Origin: an uncultured Pelagibacteraceae bacterium
Lineage (GTDB): Bacteria; Pseudomonadota; Alphaproteobacteria; Pelagibacterales; Pelagibacteraceae
Direction of reading: 5' to 3'
Assembly: GCA_902544135.1 (NCBI GenBank)
Contig: CACCBF010000001.1
Span: forward strand, 1-64,000
DNA length: 64,000 nt
Shown here: positions 46,015 to 54,016 of the stretch, piece after piece
Position numbering within the stretch: position 1 is the first letter of the stretch
Layout: every line of letters starts with the position of its first letter
The notes under the pieces: model-generated
Told to the model about the DNA's origin: nothing
Database searches by the model: none
The model's input: only the letters and a program-made list of their open reading frames with translations
Made by a program: the position numbers and the translations under genes

Positions 46015-46404
46015 ATGAATAAAATTATAGTCGAAGTTTCAATTGGGGAACTTTTAGACAAAGTTTCAATTTTAGAGATTAAGCAAGAAAAAATTAAAGA
46101 CACTGAAAAGCTAAAATTTATAAACAACGAACATTCTGTTTTAAAAGATCAATTAGAAAAAAATGTAAAGTCTGATGAAAAACTTGAGAAACTTTATCAA
46201 TCACTAAAAGAAATAAATTCAAAACTTTGGTTAATTGAAGATGAAAAAAGATTATGTGAAAAAGAAAAGGATTTTGGAGAAAAATTTATTAAACTTTCAA
46301 GAGATGTTCACTTCTTAAATGATGATCGTGCAAAAATTAAATTAGAAATTAACATTTATACAGGCTCAAAAATTAAAGAAATTAAAGAATATACAAAATA
46401 TTAG
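46015..46404 (+). CDS. DUF6165 family coiled-coil protein
   Basis: 129 residues beginning IIVEVSIGELLDKVSILEIKQEKI, the DUF6165 signature, followed by long charged helices likely to form a coiled coil. Relatives are often placed beside LPS glycosyltransferases, as here (33 bases from the divergent GT9 gene). No enzyme motif is seen and its function is unknown. Its TAG shares 46401-46404 with the stop of the convergent permease gene. Confidence 0.75.
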   Translation: MNKIIVEVSIGELLDKVSILEIKQEKIKDTEKLKFINNEHSVLKDQLEKNVKSDEKLEKLYQSLKEINSKLWLIEDEKRLCEKEKDFGEKFIKLSRDVHFLNDDRAKIKLEINIYTGSKIKEIKEYTKY

Positions 46405-47075
46405 TAGCTATATTTTTTTTCCAAAAACTTTATTAAATTGTGAATTATAAAAGTCATAAATAAATAAATTCCACCTGCAACTATAAAGACTTCAATTGGT
46501 TTAAAAGTAGTAGATATTATGTATTTTGCTACGCCCGTTAAATCCATCAATGTAACTGTGCTTGCTAAAGAGGTACCTTTGAGCATTAGTATTATTTCAT
46601 TCCCATATGCGGGAAGAGATTGTCTAATAGCTATAGGAATTTGAACTTTGTAAAAAATAATCTTATTAGATATACCTAAACTTTTTCCAGCTTCAATAAT
46701 GCCTGGTTTAATTGTTTGAAAAGCAGACCTTAAAATTTCAGAAGTATAAGCACCAGTATTTAATGCAAAAGCAATAATTGCACACCAGTAAGGTTCTTTA
46801 AGTATTACCCACAAAAAAGAAGATCTTAAAGACTCTATCTGACCTAAGCCGAAATATATAATAAATATTTGCACTAACAATGGAGTTCCTCTAAATACAT
46901 ATGAATATCCATATGCAAATTTATTGATAAAAATATTTTTATTTAATCTTAAAATTGCAAATAATAATCCAATGAATAAACCAACGATCAAAGAAACTGA
47001 CAAAAGTTTCAAAGTTACTACTGCAGCATTTAATAGCTTTGGAAAACTATTGATCATTAATTCAAAGTCCATCAA
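46401..47075 (-). CDS. amino-acid ABC transporter permease
   Basis: 224-residue HisM/HisQ-type inner-membrane protein with about 5 segments. The N-terminal LKLLSVSLIVGLFIGLLFAILRL and the cytoplasmic EAA loop EAGKSLGISNKIIFYKVQIPIAIRQSLPAYGNE are typical of polar amino acid permeases. It is the last gene of the binding protein-permease-permease set and overlaps the upstream permease by 4 bases. No ATPase gene follows. Confidence 0.92.
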   Translation of the reverse strand: MMDFELMINSFPKLLNAAVVTLKLLSVSLIVGLFIGLLFAILRLNKNIFINKFAYGYSYVFRGTPLLVQIFIIYFGLGQIESLRSSFLWVILKEPYWCAIIAFALNTGAYTSEILRSAFQTIKPGIIEAGKSLGISNKIIFYKVQIPIAIRQSLPAYGNEIILMLKGTSLASTVTLMDLTGVAKYIISTTFKPIEVFIVAGGIYLFMTFIIHNLIKFLEKKYSY

Positions 47076-47764
47076 TACCCTCTACCGTACTTAACTTCTA
47101 ATTTATTAATTAACTTCATGCTTATAAAAGTAAGCAATAAATATAAAACTGCAGCGAATGAATAAAAGAATAATGGATCTCTTGTAGAGCCAGCAGCAAT
47201 GTAAGACTGTCTCATTATTTCAACTAAACCTGTTACTGAGATTAAAGATGTATCTTTTAGAGTAATTTGCCAAACATTACTTAAATTTGGGATAGCTAGT
47301 CTTAACATTTGAGGAAAAACAATTTTATAAAACTGTTTAAATTTACTAAAACCCAAAACTTTTGCAGCCTCAAATTGACCTTTATCAATCGATTGAATTG
47401 CCCCTCTAAAAACTTCAGTCGAATAAGCACCAGATATAATACCAATAGCAAATGAACCTGTAACAAACGCATTAATTTCTATGTAGTCTTTGTATCCAAA
47501 CATTGAAGCAACAAACATAATCGCTCCACTCCCACCAAAAAAGAAAAGATAAATAACTAATAATTCAGGAACACCTCTGATGACTGTTGTGTAAATATTA
47601 GCAATTAAATTTAGAAATTTAAATTTAGATAGTTTTAAAGGAGTGAAAATTGCGGCGAAACTAAAACCGATTAACATTGCTGTTATCGAAACAGCTATGG
47701 TCATTAAGGTTGCACGAAATAACTCATCACCCCAACCAGTATCTCCAAAAGCTAGAAGTTCCAT
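47072..47764 (-). CDS. amino-acid ABC transporter permease
   Basis: 230-residue polar amino acid permease of the HisQ/ArtQ type, about 5 membrane segments. It shows VIRGVPELLVIYLFFFGG and the EAA loop GQFEAAKVLGFSKFKQFYKIVFPQMLRLAIPNLSN that docks on the ATPase. It should form a heterodimer with the second permease, which it overlaps by 4 bases. It starts just after the stem-loop that separates it from the binding-protein gene. Confidence 0.92.
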   Translation of the reverse strand: MELLAFGDTGWGDELFRATLMTIAVSITAMLIGFSFAAIFTPLKLSKFKFLNLIANIYTTVIRGVPELLVIYLFFFGGSGAIMFVASMFGYKDYIEINAFVTGSFAIGIISGAYSTEVFRGAIQSIDKGQFEAAKVLGFSKFKQFYKIVFPQMLRLAIPNLSNVWQITLKDTSLISVTGLVEIMRQSYIAAGSTRDPLFFYSFAAVLYLLLTFISMKLINKLEVKYGRGY

Positions 47765-47769
47765 ATAGA

Positions 47770-47796
47770 TTGGCGACTATACATGATAGTCGCCAA
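47770..47796 (-). promoter_or_regulatory. stem-loop between binding-protein and permease genes
   Basis: An 11-base-pair perfect stem (TTGGCGACTAT with ATAGTCGCCAA) encloses a 5-base loop and is placed 13 bases after the binding-protein stop. No T-run follows on the minus strand, so it looks like an mRNA-stabilising or processing hairpin more than a full terminator. It would keep binding-protein message above permease message. Confidence 0.65.
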
Positions 47797-47809
47797 ACCT
47801 AAAATTCAA

Positions 47810-48637
47810 TTACATAGAAGCGTCAAAACCGAACCATTTAGTAGCTATTCTACTAATATCTCCGTTCTTTCTTGCTTTATTAATTGCAGCATTAAACTTT
47901 TTTAAAAGTTCAGTATCATCTTTTCTAATACCTACCCCAACGCCATTTCCAAAAGCACCGCCTGAAAATGTTGGTCCAGTTAAAACAACTGGCTTACCAG
48001 ATTTTTCTGCATAATCACTAAATGCTACTGCTGCAGCTAATGCAGCATCACATCTTCCAGATGCTAAGTCTAAGTTAACTTCATCTTGTGTCTTATAAGT
48101 TCTGACATTTACTTTTCCTACATCACCAGAGTCTAAAAAGTTTTGATGAATTGTAGCAGTTTGTACACAAACAGTTTTACCTGCTAATGCAGCAGTAAGT
48201 GTTTTAAGATCTTTTTTAGCTGCAGCATTTGGTTTAGTAAGATTTATCCCAGCAGATGTATCTAGACCTTCTAGGCTAGATCCTTTCATGACTGCTAATG
48301 ATGCAACTTCATCTGCGTATCCTTGTGAAAAGCTGATTGCTTTTTGTCTTTCTGCAGTAATTGACATACCTGCCATTATTGCATCAAACTTTCTCATGAT
48401 TAAAGCTGGAATCATTCCGTCCCAATCTTGCTCAACTATTACACATTGCTGTCCAATGTATCTACAAAGTGTATAAGCTAATTCAACTTCGAATCCTATT
48501 AACTTACCTGCTTCATTTTTTGAGTTCCATGGAGGATAAGCACCCTCTGTTCCAATCCTTATTTTATCAGCATTAACATTTCCTATTACCAATAAAGAAA
48601 GTAAAACTGAAAAAATAGTTTTTTTAAATATATTCAT
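47810..48637 (-). CDS. periplasmic polar amino acid-binding protein
   Basis: 275-residue SBP family 3 protein with a signal peptide (MNIFKKTIFSVLLSLLVIGN, cut near VNA-DK). The mature protein has IRIGTEGAYPPWNSKNEAGKLIGFEVELAYTLC, typical of the HisJ/ArtJ/OccT group, and WDGMIPALIMRKFDAIMAGMSIT. Basic amino acids or opine-like compounds are the likely ligands, but the pocket is not decisive by eye. AGGAG lies before the ATG. The gene follows speDE after 59 bases. Confidence 0.92.
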   Translation of the reverse strand: MNIFKKTIFSVLLSLLVIGNVNADKIRIGTEGAYPPWNSKNEAGKLIGFEVELAYTLCRYIGQQCVIVEQDWDGMIPALIMRKFDAIMAGMSITAERQKAISFSQGYADEVASLAVMKGSSLEGLDTSAGINLTKPNAAAKKDLKTLTAALAGKTVCVQTATIHQNFLDSGDVGKVNVRTYKTQDEVNLDLASGRCDAALAAAVAFSDYAEKSGKPVVLTGPTFSGGAFGNGVGVGIRKDDTELLKKFNAAINKARKNGDISRIATKWFGFDASM

Positions 48638-48696: not shown

Positions 48697-49737
48697 TTAA
48701 TGATTTATTGAAGAAGAAAAATTCCAAGAACAATCAAAACTAGGTATATAAACTCTTGATAAATTAGTATTTCCAAAATGATGATTGAACACATTTAACC
48801 AATTTTCAACTTGCAGAGGTTTTTTATCCTGACTTCCAACTTGTGCGGTAATAACGCCTTTAGGCTTGAGAATTCTTACTAAAGAGTCCATATTTTTAGC
48901 AGCGAGATCTATGCAAAACTGATCATCATTTAAATCAACAAAAATATGATCATATGTATCTTCGTTCACTGTCTTTATACTTTCAAATGCATCTCCCCAA
49001 ACACATTTTACAGAATTTTTTTCTGTAGCTTTTTTTCCAATATCACCAAGATGTTTATTGCAAACTTCAACAACTTCAGGATCTAATTCATACCAATCTA
49101 TAAAGTTAAACTTTTTTGAAATACATTCTCTTGCAACACCCCCATCACCGCCACCAATAATTGCTGCTCTTTCATTTTTTTTATTTAACTTAAGACCAGC
49201 TCCAACAAAAGTTGAGCTATATAAATATTCATCCGATGCCGCCACTTGTATTTCACCATCAATAAATAAAGATTTTCCGAATTGCTCCAATTCTAAAATT
49301 TCTATATGTTGACCCACTTTTGATTTAAAATCCTCCAAGACTTCATTTACAACATATGATTTTTGTAAACCAGGTGAGCTATAAATATCATGATACAAAG
49401 ATCGGGTATCTCTATTAAATTCTTTTTTTACAATTCTTTTGTGTTCAAATTCTTTTTTAATAATATCAATTGCCACCGATGGACTTATTTTTCCACAGGT
49501 AAAAAAATCAAAACTAATTATTCCATTTTCTGGAAATGTATGAAAACTAATATGACTCTCAGCCAATAAAGCTAAAATAGTAAAACCCTGAGGTTCAAAT
49601 TTATATTTTGAAATATTCAAAATAGTTACGTTAGCTGCTTTAGCTATTTTATATATAACTTTCTCATAAACTGAAGGATCGTACTCTTTTGTAGTACCTA
49701 TAATATCTAAAGTAATATGCTCCCCAACTTTAATCAT
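48697..49737 (-). CDS. fused S-adenosylmethionine decarboxylase-spermidine synthase
   Basis: 346 residues with two enzymes in one chain. Residues 1-~120 are a bacterial SpeD: self-cleavage would occur between Glu60 and Ser61 in LLAESHISFHTFPE, with His66 and Cys81 at positions matching the known catalytic His and Cys of Thermotoga SpeD. Residues ~123-346 are a SpeE: SLFIDGEIQVAASDEYLY, the AdoMet-type loop IIGGGDGGVARE, and FVDLNDDQF. Decarboxylated AdoMet made by the first half is the aminopropyl donor for the second, giving spermidine and methylthioadenosine. It is last in the mtnP-mtnA-aldolase-speDE operon. Confidence 0.92.
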   Translation of the reverse strand: MIKVGEHITLDIIGTTKEYDPSVYEKVIYKIAKAANVTILNISKYKFEPQGFTILALLAESHISFHTFPENGIISFDFFTCGKISPSVAIDIIKKEFEHKRIVKKEFNRDTRSLYHDIYSSPGLQKSYVVNEVLEDFKSKVGQHIEILELEQFGKSLFIDGEIQVAASDEYLYSSTFVGAGLKLNKKNERAAIIGGGDGGVARECISKKFNFIDWYELDPEVVEVCNKHLGDIGKKATEKNSVKCVWGDAFESIKTVNEDTYDHIFVDLNDDQFCIDLAAKNMDSLVRILKPKGVITAQVGSQDKKPLQVENWLNVFNHHFGNTNLSRVYIPSFDCSWNFSSSINH

Positions 49738-49738
49738 C

Positions 49739-50395
49739 TTACCCTTTTTTATAGTTTTTAGCCTTATCTAAAACTTTTTTCATTTCTTCAAATGAAAGTA
49801 TCTTAGGTTGTCCTAGTTTTAAAGCAATAGTGTATTGATGACAAATATTTTCTATCTCTTGTGCAAGTTCAAATGCATCCTCTAAATTTTTTCCAAAAGC
49901 AACCTGGCCGTGATTAGACATTAAACAAGCATATCTATTTTCTAAAGCTTTGATAACATTTTTGGATAATTCCTCTGTTCCAAAAGTAGCGTATTCAGCA
50001 CATTTAATGTTATCTCCACCAGCTAGAGCGATCATATAATGAAAGGGTGGAATAGGTTTTCCATGTGAAGATACAGCTGTTGCGTGTGGAGAATGAGCAT
50101 GAACAATTGCCTGTGCCTCTTTTTTATTTTTATAAATATCTCTATGAAATCTCCATTCAGATGATGGTTTGTTGGTTGAATTGTTTTTTTCTTCTTCTTC
50201 ATTTAAACCCATAAAAACAATATCTTCAGGTTTTAATGTTTCATATTTTTTTCCTGATGGAGTAATTAAATATCCTTCTGTGTTATCCTCTATTCCTCTC
50301 AATGATATATTGCCTGATCTAAGAGGTGAAAGATTTGTAGAATTTAATTTTAACGAATATTCTATAATCTGATTTCTTTGCTCTAAATTCTTCAT
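49739..50395 (-). CDS. class II aldolase, probable 5-methylthioribulose-1-phosphate aldolase
   Basis: 218-residue class II (fuculose-phosphate type) aldolase. Seen are SPLRSGNISLRG, LITPSGKKYETLKPEDIVFM, the metal and catalytic region PSSEWRFHRDIY, IVHAHSPHATAVSS with two histidines, and SNHGQVAFG. Between mtnA and speDE, its likely substrate is 5-methylthioribulose-1-phosphate, split to dihydroxyacetone phosphate and methylthioacetaldehyde as in the DHAP shunt. The related dehydratase MtnB has the same fold, so that alternative stays open. It overlaps mtnA by 4 bases. Confidence 0.8.
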   Translation of the reverse strand: MKNLEQRNQIIEYSLKLNSTNLSPLRSGNISLRGIEDNTEGYLITPSGKKYETLKPEDIVFMGLNEEEEKNNSTNKPSSEWRFHRDIYKNKKEAQAIVHAHSPHATAVSSHGKPIPPFHYMIALAGGDNIKCAEYATFGTEELSKNVIKALENRYACLMSNHGQVAFGKNLEDAFELAQEIENICHQYTIALKLGQPKILSFEEMKKVLDKAKNYKKG

Positions 50396-51462
50396 TTAAA
50401 TAATTCTTTAAGTCCTTTTTCTGAAGCCTCGCATACACCTTTTTCGGTAATTAATCCTGTAACATATTTTGCTGGAGTTACATCAAAAGCTAAATTCATG
50501 GCTTTACTTTTTTTTGGATAAATTTGTATTTTTTTTATATCTCCTTTTTCATCTAAACCTTCAACATGAGATAATTCATCTGAATTTCTCTCTTCGATTG
50601 GGATATCTTTATGATCTTTTATGTTCCAGTCAATCGTTGAACTTGGTAGCGCAACATAAAAAGGAATATTATTATCACGAGCTGCTAATGCTTTAAGATA
50701 AGTTCCAACCTTATTACAAACATCTCCATTGGCTAGAGTTCTATCTGTTCCAACAATACACATGTCAACTTCACCTCTTTGCATTAATATGCCGCCTGTA
50801 TTATCTGCAATGATTGTGTTTTTAATTCCTTCTTCATTTAATTCATAAGATGTAAGATTTGCTCCTTGATTTCTTGGTCTAGTTTCGTCTGCCCAGACAT
50901 GAACGGGAATTCCTTTTTTGTGTGCATGATAAATTGGAGAGGTTGCAGTTCCCCAATTTATAGTTGCAAGCCAACCTGCATTACAATGAGTTAATATATT
51001 AACTGTATCTTTTTTTTTATTATAGATTTCCTCAATAATTTTTAGTCCATTTATTCCTATATTTTCACAAAATTTTACATCCTCTTCACATATATCTTTT
51101 GCTTCCTTCAAGGCTATTTCTAAAATTTTATCGCTATTAACACCTGATAATTTATTCATCATTCTATCAACAGCCCACTTTAAATTTATTGCTGTTGGTC
51201 TTGAACTAATTAAATCTTCTGCAGATTTTTTTAAAAATGATTGATCATTATTTTCAATTATAGCTAAAGCCATTCCATAAGCTGCTGTAGCTCCAATTAG
51301 AGGTGCGCCTCTAACTTCCATTACCTTAATCGCATTTATTGAGTCCTCTACAGTTTTGAGGTCTTTAATAATAAATTGATGTGGAAGTTTTGTTTGATTA
51401 ATAATTTTTACGACATTATTTTCAAACCAAATAGTACGATATTCTTTTCCTTCTATTCTCAT
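50392..51462 (-). CDS. mtnA: methylthioribose-1-phosphate isomerase
   Basis: Converts methylthioribose-1-phosphate to methylthioribulose-1-phosphate. 356 residues. Motifs are RGAPLIGATAAYGMAL near residue 54, LTHCNAGWLAT with the catalytic cysteine near 160, and CIVGTDRTLANGDVCNKVGTY with the catalytic aspartate near 240. The related eIF2B-like proteins lack this set. It sits between mtnP (4-base overlap) and the aldolase (4-base overlap), exactly the order of the pathway. Confidence 0.94.
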   Translation of the reverse strand: MRIEGKEYRTIWFENNVVKIINQTKLPHQFIIKDLKTVEDSINAIKVMEVRGAPLIGATAAYGMALAIIENNDQSFLKKSAEDLISSRPTAINLKWAVDRMMNKLSGVNSDKILEIALKEAKDICEEDVKFCENIGINGLKIIEEIYNKKKDTVNILTHCNAGWLATINWGTATSPIYHAHKKGIPVHVWADETRPRNQGANLTSYELNEEGIKNTIIADNTGGILMQRGEVDMCIVGTDRTLANGDVCNKVGTYLKALAARDNNIPFYVALPSSTIDWNIKDHKDIPIEERNSDELSHVEGLDEKGDIKKIQIYPKKSKAMNLAFDVTPAKYVTGLITEKGVCEASEKGLKELFK

Positions 51463-52331
51463 TGATTTAAAACTCTACCAGCAACAGTTTTAAGTTTTTC
51501 TATTGTTTTTTTTGTTCTTTTTTCAGGTGCTGTAATAATTGCAACATCTAAACAATTATTGGTTGGATCATTAGGATCAATGAAATCTTCAAAATTTTCT
51601 ATCAAGTTTTTAATCATGTTTTTTGCTTTTGCGGCATTACCTAACAAAACTTTTATTACTTGTTGAACATCAACATTTTCATGATCTGGATGCCAGCAGT
51701 CATAATCTGTAACCATAGAAACTGACGCATATCTTATCTCTGCCTCTCTTGCTAATTTTGCCTCTGGCATATTAGTCATTCCAATTACATCTGCTTTCCA
51801 AGATCTATATAAGTTTGATTCTGCTAAAGTTGAAAATTGCGGACCCTCCATAACCACATAAGTTCCACCTCTTTGATATTCTATTTTTTCTTTTTTAATT
51901 GCCTCTTCACATGCGTTCATCAAACCGTTAGATGTTGGATGAGCCATAGAAACATGTGCAACTATTTCATTGTCAAAAAATGTTTTTACCCTAGAGAAAG
52001 TTCTATCTATAAATTGATCTACTATTACAAACTTTCCAGGAGGTAAATCTTCTTTTAATGACCCGACAGCTGAAACAGATACGATGTCTGTAACCCCTAA
52101 TTGTTTCAATGCATCAATATTAGCTCTAAAGTTAATATTTGAGGGTGAAATGAAATGTCCTCTTCCATGTCTTGGTAAGAAATAAACTTCTTTATTTTTA
52201 TAAATTGTTTTTAAAATTTGATCAGATGGCTCACCCCAGGGAGTATTCAGATTTATTAATTCCCTGTCAGTAAATTCCTCTACATCATATAGACCACTTC
52301 CACCAATTATTGCCAATTTATTTCTTGTCAT
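51459..52331 (-). CDS. mtnP: S-methyl-5'-thioadenosine phosphorylase
   Basis: Phosphorolysis of methylthioadenosine to adenine and methylthioribose-1-phosphate. 290 residues. Phosphate and substrate motifs are LAIIGGSGLYD, FLPRHGRGH, YVVMEGPQFSTLAES, and IGMTNMPEAKLAREAE; the last one separates MTA phosphorylase from purine nucleoside phosphorylase. It is the first gene of the minus-strand operon with mtnA, the aldolase and speDE, and diverges from apt across 41 bases. Confidence 0.94.
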   Translation of the reverse strand: MTRNKLAIIGGSGLYDVEEFTDRELINLNTPWGEPSDQILKTIYKNKEVYFLPRHGRGHFISPSNINFRANIDALKQLGVTDIVSVSAVGSLKEDLPPGKFVIVDQFIDRTFSRVKTFFDNEIVAHVSMAHPTSNGLMNACEEAIKKEKIEYQRGGTYVVMEGPQFSTLAESNLYRSWKADVIGMTNMPEAKLAREAEIRYASVSMVTDYDCWHPDHENVDVQQVIKVLLGNAAKAKNMIKNLIENFEDFIDPNDPTNNCLDVAIITAPEKRTKKTIEKLKTVAGRVLNQ

Positions 52332-52372
52332 GTTTAAAATATAAATTATTTATACTTTAATAATTACTTATT

Positions 52373-52900
52373 ATGAATTTAAAAGATTTTATAAGATCTA
52401 TTCAAGACTATCCAAAAAAGGGGATTCTTTTTAGAGATATTACCACACTAATTAAAGACAAAGATGCATTCGCTGAAGCAATTAGTCAAATAGTTGAAAG
52501 ATCTAAAAAATATGATTTTGATAAGATCGCTGCAATTGAGTCTCGAGGATTTGTTTTTGCTTCAGCAGTCTCATTTATTTTGAAAAAACCTTTTATTATG
52601 CTTAGGAAAAAAAATAAACTTCCTGCAGAAGTTCACTCAGTTGATTTCGAGTTAGAATATGGAACAGCTACAATTGAAGTTCATAAGGACTCTTTTGAGA
52701 AAAATGATAATGTTTTAATCATTGATGATTTGATTGCTACTGGGGGAACAGCTGAAGCTGCTGCTAAGTTAATTAAAATGTCAGAAGCTAATGTTGCAGC
52801 ATTTATTTTTGTTATAAATTTATTTGATTTGGGTGGATGCAAAAAGCTTGAAGATAAAGGTTTTAAAGTAGAAAATTTAATAGAATTTCCTGGACATTAA
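52373..52900 (+). CDS. apt: adenine phosphoribosyltransferase
   Basis: Joins adenine to PRPP to give AMP. 175 residues, normal for Apt. The type I PRTase motif is VLIIDDLIATGGTAEAAAKL, with AIESRGFVFASAVSF and LRKKNKLPAEVHS forming the purine side. It diverges from mtnP by 41 bases, so the adenine that MtnP releases can be recaptured by its neighbour. Its TAA shares 52897-52900 with the stop of the convergent SGNH gene. Confidence 0.95.
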   Translation: MNLKDFIRSIQDYPKKGILFRDITTLIKDKDAFAEAISQIVERSKKYDFDKIAAIESRGFVFASAVSFILKKPFIMLRKKNKLPAEVHSVDFELEYGTATIEVHKDSFEKNDNVLIIDDLIATGGTAEAAAKLIKMSEANVAAFIFVINLFDLGGCKKLEDKGFKVENLIEFPGH

Positions 52901-53939: not shown

Positions 53940-54016
53940 TGGTAGCGGGAAGTGGGATCGAACCACTGACCTCAGGCTTATGAGTCCTGCGCTCTAACCA
54001 ACTGAGCTACCCCGCC
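53940..54016 (-). tRNA. tRNA-Met (anticodon CAT), elongator type
   Basis: The 77-base cloverleaf on the minus strand starts GGCGGGGTAGCTCAG and ends with an encoded CCA (53940-53942). The anticodon loop is CTCATAA, and the T arm is AGTGG-TTCGATC-CCACT. The acceptor stem has G-U pairs at 1-72 and 7-66. The anticodon stem's lowest pair is A31 opposite G39, a mismatch. A tRNA-Ile2 with a modified C34 is possible, but the acceptor stem resembles alphaproteobacterial elongator tRNA-Met. Confidence 0.93.

Follow-up and report, generated by a model that had tools for sequence, protein, structure and literature searches.

A window of 64,000 nucleotides, the whole stretch of DNA analysed here (contig CACCBF010000001.1, assembly GCA_902544135.1, from an uncultured Pelagibacteraceae bacterium), contains at positions 48,697–52,900 a locus for polyamine synthesis and for the handling of its by-product, methylthioadenosine (MTA). 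By the open reading frame (ORF) calls, mtnP, mtnA, a class II aldolase gene and a speD-speE fusion (speDE) follow one another on the minus strand, and apt is divergent next to mtnP. The locus is very probably the MtnP-type dihydroxyacetone phosphate (DHAP) shunt attached to polyamine synthesis, the substrate of the aldolase being predicted. Comparison of the relatives shows a polyamine synthase beside which one cassette, predicted to dispose of MTA, can stand in for another. Both the fusion and the DHAP shunt are known, and what is new about the window locus is the setting of its parts. More interesting is that relatives swap disposal modules at this polyamine locus. Neither this swapping nor an mtnA-linked aldolase-dehydrogenase was found described among the open-access papers listed for SAR11 together with the DHAP shunt or MTA disposal, a search that does not establish priority.

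SAR11 depends on reduced sulfur, and it both makes and takes up polyamines. Each aminopropyl transfer yields one MTA, so that the disposal route decides what share of the adenine, carbon and methyl sulfur the cell retains and what share leaks to seawater. The three modules seen at one site are natural variants that make the fate of the sulfur testable. SAR11 cells are a large part of the bacteria of the ocean (PMC8437039).

Genes of the Locus

The mtnP and mtnA genes overlap by 4 bases, mtnA and the aldolase gene likewise by 4 bases, and a gap of 1 base separates the aldolase gene from speDE. The start codons of mtnP and apt are 41 bases apart. An earlier note on this DNA had described one operon with junctions of 1–4 bases and a divergent apt next to it, and the junctions and the arrangement are borne out. 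Its statement that the gene order follows the chemistry does not hold exactly; the MTA-producing fusion comes last.

MtnP exceeds the cut-offs of PRK08931 (446.2 bits, cut-off 437) and of the MTAP model TIGR01694 (307.2, cut-off 274.85), and both scores identify it as the MTA phosphorylase of the MtnP variant of the DHAP shunt. Its Asp209 and Asp211 are identical in all 48 sequences compared. MtnA scores 423.9 bits to TIGR00512 (cut-off 279), as the isomerase of the shunt should. Its Cys160 is seen in 48 of 49 sequences, with a gap in the other, and Asp240 in 49 of 49; we take these two to be the catalytic residues. Apt scores 201.3 bits to TIGR01090 (cut-off 185.85).

The SpeD domain of the fusion scores 99 bits to TIGR03330 (cut-off 75.65). 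The SpeE domain remains below the cut-offs of TIGR00417 (98.8, cut-off 249.55) and PRK00811 (123.1, cut-off 260), and is over that of Pfam Spermine_synth (80.2, cut-off 22.9). PF02675, PF01564 and PF17284 are all over cut-off. Both domains thus occur in one chain together with their active-site residues: Ser61, His66, Cys81 and the three tested positions of GGGDGG, which the earlier note had pointed out for the window protein, are identical in all 59 fusions compared. The roles of the residues compared in the fusion and in the aldolase are presumed from their families. The 80 nearest named loci, all of Pelagibacteraceae or Candidatus Pelagibacter, which places the window's organism in SAR11, encode fusions at least 92% identical to that of the window, with one identical protein among them; in two loci titled Candidatus Pelagibacter ubique the identity is 96%.

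Two strains of Ca. Pelagibacter, HTCC1062 and HTCC7211, have fusions with the same domain order, and these are reported to produce spermidine in E. coli deleted for speD and to yield also spermine and thermospermine (PMC11107197). The window fusion should accordingly not be named a spermidine synthase only, given that Pelagibacter orthologues make these three amines (PMC11107197). Spermidine synthesis, claimed earlier for this locus, is thus supported by the orthologues, but the fusion is neither specific nor new (PMC11107197). SAR11 polyamine use is described in PMC8437039, where SpeE is proposed to run in reverse too. A Pelagibacter homologue of ornithine decarboxylase is reported to be an arginine decarboxylase (PMC9992855).

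Three Exchangeable Modules

A search of 117 genomes of the order, 64 from the window's family and 53 from a second SAR11 family, covered the fusion together with the aldolase and the adjoining genes. The fusion is present in 59 of the 64 and in none of the 53, where three weak matches cover only part of the protein. Three types of modules accompany it, and no fusion genome has two of them.

Type A, the type of the window, has the single-domain aldolase and is seen in 44 of the 59 fusion genomes. It is defined by an aldolase score of at least 263 bits; further genomes contain Aldolase_II proteins of other kinds that match more weakly. The aldolase gene ends at most 142 bases before the fusion in 43 of the 58 relatives' loci read, all 43 of type A, and it lies in the same locus in all of the 80 nearest named loci. 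By these counts and the distribution of the fusion, the grouping pointed out by the earlier note is more than chance.

Type B is found in nine fusion genomes. Here a 677-residue protein, composed of a class II aldolase domain and a short-chain dehydrogenase domain, is encoded beside speDE on the opposite strand. One such protein was scored and gave 901.7 bits to the model of bifunctional aldolase/short-chain dehydrogenase (SDR) proteins (cut-off 639). The gene is directly between mtnA and speDE in seven of the nine genomes; in the other two, G088 and G090, it is set apart from mtnA by intervening genes or a longer distance.

In type C, seen in five fusion genomes, neither mtnP nor mtnA has a match, and both the type-A and the type-B aldolase are missing. 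A gene of the PNP_UDP_1 family is placed immediately before speDE, and the three read encode 174–178 residues. These proteins score nearest to nucleosidases, yet below the nucleosidase cut-offs, and the solved MTA nucleosidases that they match have at least 229 residues. Two of the expected active-site residues are kept in 8 of 8 sequences and the third in 5 of 8, including four copies from fusion-less genomes. Two of the type-C genomes are single-contig assemblies, so that the absence of mtnP, mtnA and the aldolase there is no assembly gap.

G109 was left untyped; its fusion is at a contig start, its mtnP is on a different contig, and no mtnA was found. On the fusion tree, many branches of which are weak, the three states need 10 changes over the 58 typed genomes, while shuffled labels need 13.4 on average.

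The slot between mtnP and mtnA holds differing extra genes in different clades (L036:6407-7336, L047:11855-12295, L053:11977-12420). Their products are weakly alpha/beta-hydrolase-like, GFA and tautomerase-like.

Identity of the Aldolase

The window aldolase scores 180.8 bits to Aldolase_II (cut-off 22.2), and its Glu80, His99, His101 and His162 are identical in 44 of 44 sequences. No second Aldolase_II protein was found in the window's genome (1,137,313 bases in 22 contigs, 92.5% complete). Among 289 genomes of Alphaproteobacteria, 81 contain a relative at E 1e-30; three of these are SAR11 genomes, which leaves 78. From these 78, 27 loci were examined: mtnA or mtnP is within 1.5 kb in 22, and apt is also present in six. 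The placement of apt beside mtnA and the aldolase, in which the earlier note saw adenine salvage, is therefore not unique to the window.

The aldolase tree includes 12 of the 44 SAR11 aldolases. They fall in a starred group of 14, whose two remaining sequences are encoded beside mtnA. A separate starred group of seven contains E. coli FucA and showed no mtn gene. Support for the deepest split is weak, and the mtn-linked copies do not form one clade. In the window the aldolase gene adjoins mtnA, and its protein clusters in the tree with mtn-linked relatives and not with FucA, whereas raw scores favour FucA. Relatives on plasmids amounted to 162 records, four of which were opened. The E. coli match is FucA itself (its start equals PDB 1fua), and the other three have no mtnA or mtnP within 4 kb. 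None of the four opened gave an mtn-linked named relative, so that the tree contains no characterised Ald2; it contains no characterised DrdA either.

The DHAP-shunt reading is based on the low MtnB scores, the single Aldolase_II protein, the lack of any acireductone dioxygenase (ARD) match over cut-off, the mtn-linked relatives and the tree. It is extremely improbable that the aldolase is instead an MtnB starting the standard methionine salvage, with the later genes elsewhere in the genome. MtnB belongs to the same superfamily and the protein does match its models weakly (TIGR03328, 70.1 bits; PRK09220, 65.7 bits), and in a 92.5% complete genome MtnC was not searched for. These scores are, however, far below the cut-offs (137.05 and 226) and below the best FucA score of 196.6, and in the tree the protein lies closest to mtn-linked aldolases. 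Moreover, ARD (PF03079/MtnD) is over cut-off in none of the 117 genomes, with one sub-threshold match in G007; the same search gave matches in 5 of 14 known genomes, including B. subtilis, two of them over cut-off. MtnB-type salvage was rejected on the MtnB scores and the absence of MtnD. The refuting case named in the earlier note, an aldolase that proves to be MtnB, is thus not upheld, and its genome check for mtnD gave no match over cut-off. As for its claim that mtnBCDE salvage is avoided, there is no sign of the oxygen-dependent route through MtnB and MtnD, while MtnC, MtnE and MtnK were not searched for. It is also very improbable that the protein serves sugar catabolism, as an aldolase for fuculose phosphate or ribulose phosphate that lies here by chance, although FucA gives the highest scores in both NCBIfam and the PDB and related plasmid copies stand beside sugar kinases and transporters. 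The cut-offs of all three FucA models are missed (196.6 and 191.6 against cut-offs of 264, and 172.8 against 400.25), the operon has no sugar kinase, and in nine relatives this aldolase is replaced by another that is often mtn-linked. FucA was rejected on the missed cut-offs and the tree, with the reservation that raw similarity to it is the highest.

Several facts weigh against the DHAP shunt attached to polyamine synthesis. The aldolase matches E. coli FucA at 45%, and in the PDB the FucA chains score 161.6 bits versus 138.3 for 6btd. That entry is labelled fuculose phosphate aldolase, and we take it to be DrdA, a candidate aldolase of the 5-deoxyribose pathway. Methylthioribulose-1-phosphate, deoxyribulose-1-phosphate and other keto-sugar phosphates are not separable as substrates by sequence alone. 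Co-transcription of mtnP, mtnA, the aldolase gene and speDE is inferred from spacing only. That the module belongs to spermidine and not to 5'-deoxyadenosine is argued mostly from a single contrast, the one between the two families; in the second family, mtnA occurs in three fusion-less genomes, two of which also have mtnP. In the window's own family, four of the five fusion-less genomes are drafts of 94–96% completeness, and one assembly gap would remove both the fusion and the module, which are adjacent. The co-absence of fusion and module in these four was dropped as strong evidence for MTA, the drafts being incomplete and the genes adjacent; Fisher values disregard both this and kinship. 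The remaining one, G009, is a single contig that has no fusion and keeps apt and a nucleosidase-like gene.

These points bear on whether the main substrate could be 5'-deoxyadenosine from radical S-adenosylmethionine (SAM) enzymes, with MTA secondary and the adjacency of speDE incidental. We regard this as unlikely, though worth serious attention. Radical SAM proteins are present in 117 of 117 genomes, the 5-deoxyribose cluster of Bacillus thuringiensis is alike (PMC6079011), and the E. coli DHAP shunt is reported to handle both MTA and 5'-deoxyadenosine (PMC10986504); the fusion-less genomes with mtnA point in the same direction. Against it, the 53 genomes of the second family all have radical SAM proteins and no fusion, and mtnP is seen in only two and mtnA in three of them. 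All 59 fusion genomes have one or more genes of a disposal module, against 8 of the 58 fusion-less genomes, one of the eight being a contig-end fragment. That the module accompanies the fusion and is rare without it, despite universal radical SAM proteins, favours MTA from polyamine synthesis. In addition, the aldolase gene stays near speDE in every type-A locus read, and the replacement in five fusion genomes is a short MTA-nucleosidase-like gene directly before speDE. The same enzymes probably accept 5'-deoxyadenosine as well. It is improbable, finally, that the neighbours stay together without a joint function, only through the small and collinear genomes of SAR11. The downstream amino-acid transporter is about equally conserved, its binding protein gene being next after the fusion in 45 of the 58 relatives' loci. 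On the other hand, start and stop codons overlap, modules are repeatedly exchanged at the site, other genes are inserted between neighbours while the set persists, and two fusion-less genomes of the other SAR11 family carry apt, mtnP, mtnA and the aldolase-dehydrogenase gene on one strand.

Proposed Pathway and Fate of Sulfur

The MtnP-type DHAP shunt attached to polyamine synthesis would proceed as follows. The SpeD domain would decarboxylate S-adenosylmethionine, and the SpeE domain would transfer aminopropyl groups to putrescine and longer amines with the release of one MTA per transfer, as has been shown for Pelagibacter fusions. MtnP would convert MTA and phosphate to adenine and methylthioribose-1-phosphate, and Apt would convert the adenine to adenosine monophosphate. 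MtnA would isomerise methylthioribose-1-phosphate to methylthioribulose-1-phosphate, which, judging from family, phylogeny and context, the class II aldolase would cleave to DHAP and 2-(methylthio)acetaldehyde. These functions, from the fused SpeD-SpeE to the recovery of adenine by Apt, had been assigned by the earlier note, and family scores, tree and context argue for them. No aldehyde reductase gene is seen in the window's operon by ORF list and family scores. The aldehyde would probably be reduced to 2-(methylthio)ethanol and then lost, as in E. coli with the DHAP shunt, unless some enzyme frees methanethiol. Loss as methylthioethanol is the simplest expectation for the window's organism, and the closed loop claimed earlier is too strong; the loop would not be closed for sulfur. 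The genome encodes an O-acetylhomoserine sulfhydrylase (609.9 bits, cut-off 495.1), which is over cut-off in 100 of the 117 genomes, so that methanethiol, if freed, could be captured. P. ubique is stated in a review to export methanethiol as metabolic waste (PMC6302742).

MtnP, MtnA and Ald2 constitute the DHAP shunt, which is reported to lead to methanethiol in Rhodopseudomonas palustris and mainly to 2-methylthioethanol in E. coli (PMC5893883, PMC10986504). The MtnP variant of R. palustris and Rhodospirillum rubrum (some E. coli have an MtnK variant) has the same three enzyme families in adjacent genes, likewise with no MtnB or MtnD found. The window locus differs in sharing its operon with a fused polyamine synthase and in having no known onward route for the aldehyde. 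A related cluster, DrdK-DrdI-DrdA, salvages 5-deoxyribose in B. thuringiensis according to PMC6079011. Its isomerase and class II aldolase are of the same families as those of the window, whereas in the window a phosphorylase replaces the B. thuringiensis kinase and speDE is linked.

The Aldolase-Dehydrogenase Outside the Locus

The two fusion-less genomes of the second family with the one-strand arrangement of apt, mtnP, mtnA and the aldolase-dehydrogenase gene are accompanied by a third, cut by a contig end, in which mtnA adjoins the aldolase-dehydrogenase gene. In one of these loci, an ORF after the mtnP-mtnA-aldolase-dehydrogenase genes (L200:11244-12383) matches PF04371, which we take to be the family including agmatine deiminases; a second link to polyamines is possible. 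It has no match in L201 or L202.

A relative of the aldolase-dehydrogenase at E 1e-100 is found in 49 of the 289 alphaproteobacterial genomes. Among 30 loci examined from these, mtnA or mtnP is within 1.5 kb in 18; the other 12 count against a role in MTA disposal for every member of that protein family. Type-B relatives in Sinorhizobium meliloti and Agrobacterium are in polyol/glycerol-3-phosphate-type loci. Plasmid matches amounted to 136 records, six of which were opened: of four copies at 46–50% identity, two are near mtnK-mtnA and a sugar transporter and two in polyol-type loci, and two copies at low identity are in rhamnose loci. In the tree, where long branches make fine placement unsure, the type-B copies of the SAR11 family are one clade among mostly mtn-linked relatives, far from the rhamnose copies. 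Both aldolase kinds occur together in four of the 289 genomes versus about 14 expected by chance, a count in which the 81 genomes with the single-domain aldolase include some not mtn-linked.

All 48 rows compared, including two rha-locus copies, share the aldolase His and the Ser, Tyr and Lys of the SDR part, and 47 have the aldolase Glu. In the dehydrogenase, all 48 also have an Asp that would suit NAD. We presume that the Ser, Tyr and Lys are catalytic and that the Asp sets the preference for NAD. The two-domain architecture is the same as that of RhaEW, the rhamnulose-1-phosphate aldolase/lactaldehyde dehydrogenase, and the Chloroflexus RhaEW is reported to oxidise the aldehyde with NAD and to show no reductase activity (PMC3870299). 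The type-B enzyme does not belong to RhaEW by score or context: one SAR11 protein gives 441 to RhaD_aldol-ADH (cut-off 567.75), and the gene adjoins mtnA/mtnP, not rha genes. The rha-locus copies branch apart and are about 30% identical to it.

For the aldehyde step that follows the DHAP shunt, in SAR11 as in other Alphaproteobacteria, the aldolase-dehydrogenase offers a concrete candidate; by analogy with RhaEW, it might oxidise methylthioacetaldehyde to (methylthio)acetate. Together, these observations allow a tentative proposal, to which we give somewhat less than an even chance. Alphaproteobacteria including SAR11 would use a second DHAP shunt, in which the 677-residue protein of a RhaE-like aldolase and an NAD-type SDR cleaves methylthioribulose-1-phosphate and oxidises methylthioacetaldehyde, yielding DHAP, NADH and (methylthio)acetate. 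At the polyamine locus of SAR11, this protein, the simple aldolase and the MTA-nucleosidase-like protein would interchange repeatedly, so that close relatives would release methylthioethanol, methylthioacetate or methylthioribose while all making spermidine in one way. It can further be conjectured that strains may differ in running the aminopropyltransferase in reverse because some hydrolyse MTA irreversibly and others phosphorolyse it.

Features and Neighbouring Genes

Table 1. Positions of the genes at the window locus, of its neighbours, and of the replacing genes in related loci (L numbers).
Feature	Position	Strand	Basis or remark
mtnP, S-methyl-5'-thioadenosine phosphorylase, 290 aa	51459..52331	−	NCBIfam PRK08931 and TIGR01694 over cut-off; TDYDCW motif
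mtnA, methylthioribose-1-phosphate isomerase, 356 aa	50392..51462	−	TIGR00512 over cut-off
class II aldolase, 218 aa, predicted methylthioribulose-1-phosphate/5-deoxyribulose-1-phosphate aldolase (Ald2/DrdA type)	49739..50395	−	Aldolase_II, tree, context
speD-speE fusion, 346 aa	48697..49737	−	AdoMetDC ~4-109, aminopropyltransferase ~119-340
apt, adenine phosphoribosyltransferase, 175 aa	52373..52900	+	TIGR01090 over cut-off; divergent from mtnP
family 3 amino-acid-type substrate-binding protein	47810..48637	−	PF00497 126.8 bits; TIGR01096 229.1 (below cut-off 256.35)
two amino-acid-type ATP-binding cassette (ABC) permeases, after the binding protein	46401..47764	−	PF00528 over cut-off in both
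tRNA gene near the locus	53943-54016	−	Rfam match, 63.4 bits
type-B aldolase-dehydrogenase	L040:10147-12180 and eight further SAR11 loci; also L200, L201, L202		replaces the single-domain aldolase
short MTA/S-adenosylhomocysteine (SAH)-nucleosidase-like proteins before speDE	L031:10320-10844, L030:8753-9280, L051:4768-5304		genomes without mtnP, mtnA and aldolase
fourth short MTA/SAH-nucleosidase-like protein	L203:9085-9615		174-178 residues

An Rfam scan of 44–56 kb, with matches up to E 1, gave the tRNA as the sole match and no RNA control element. The substrate-binding protein gene is located 59 bases past speDE on the same strand and is a possible tail of the operon. The amino-acid-type ABC transporter to which it belongs (46401-48637) possibly supplies arginine or ornithine for putrescine.

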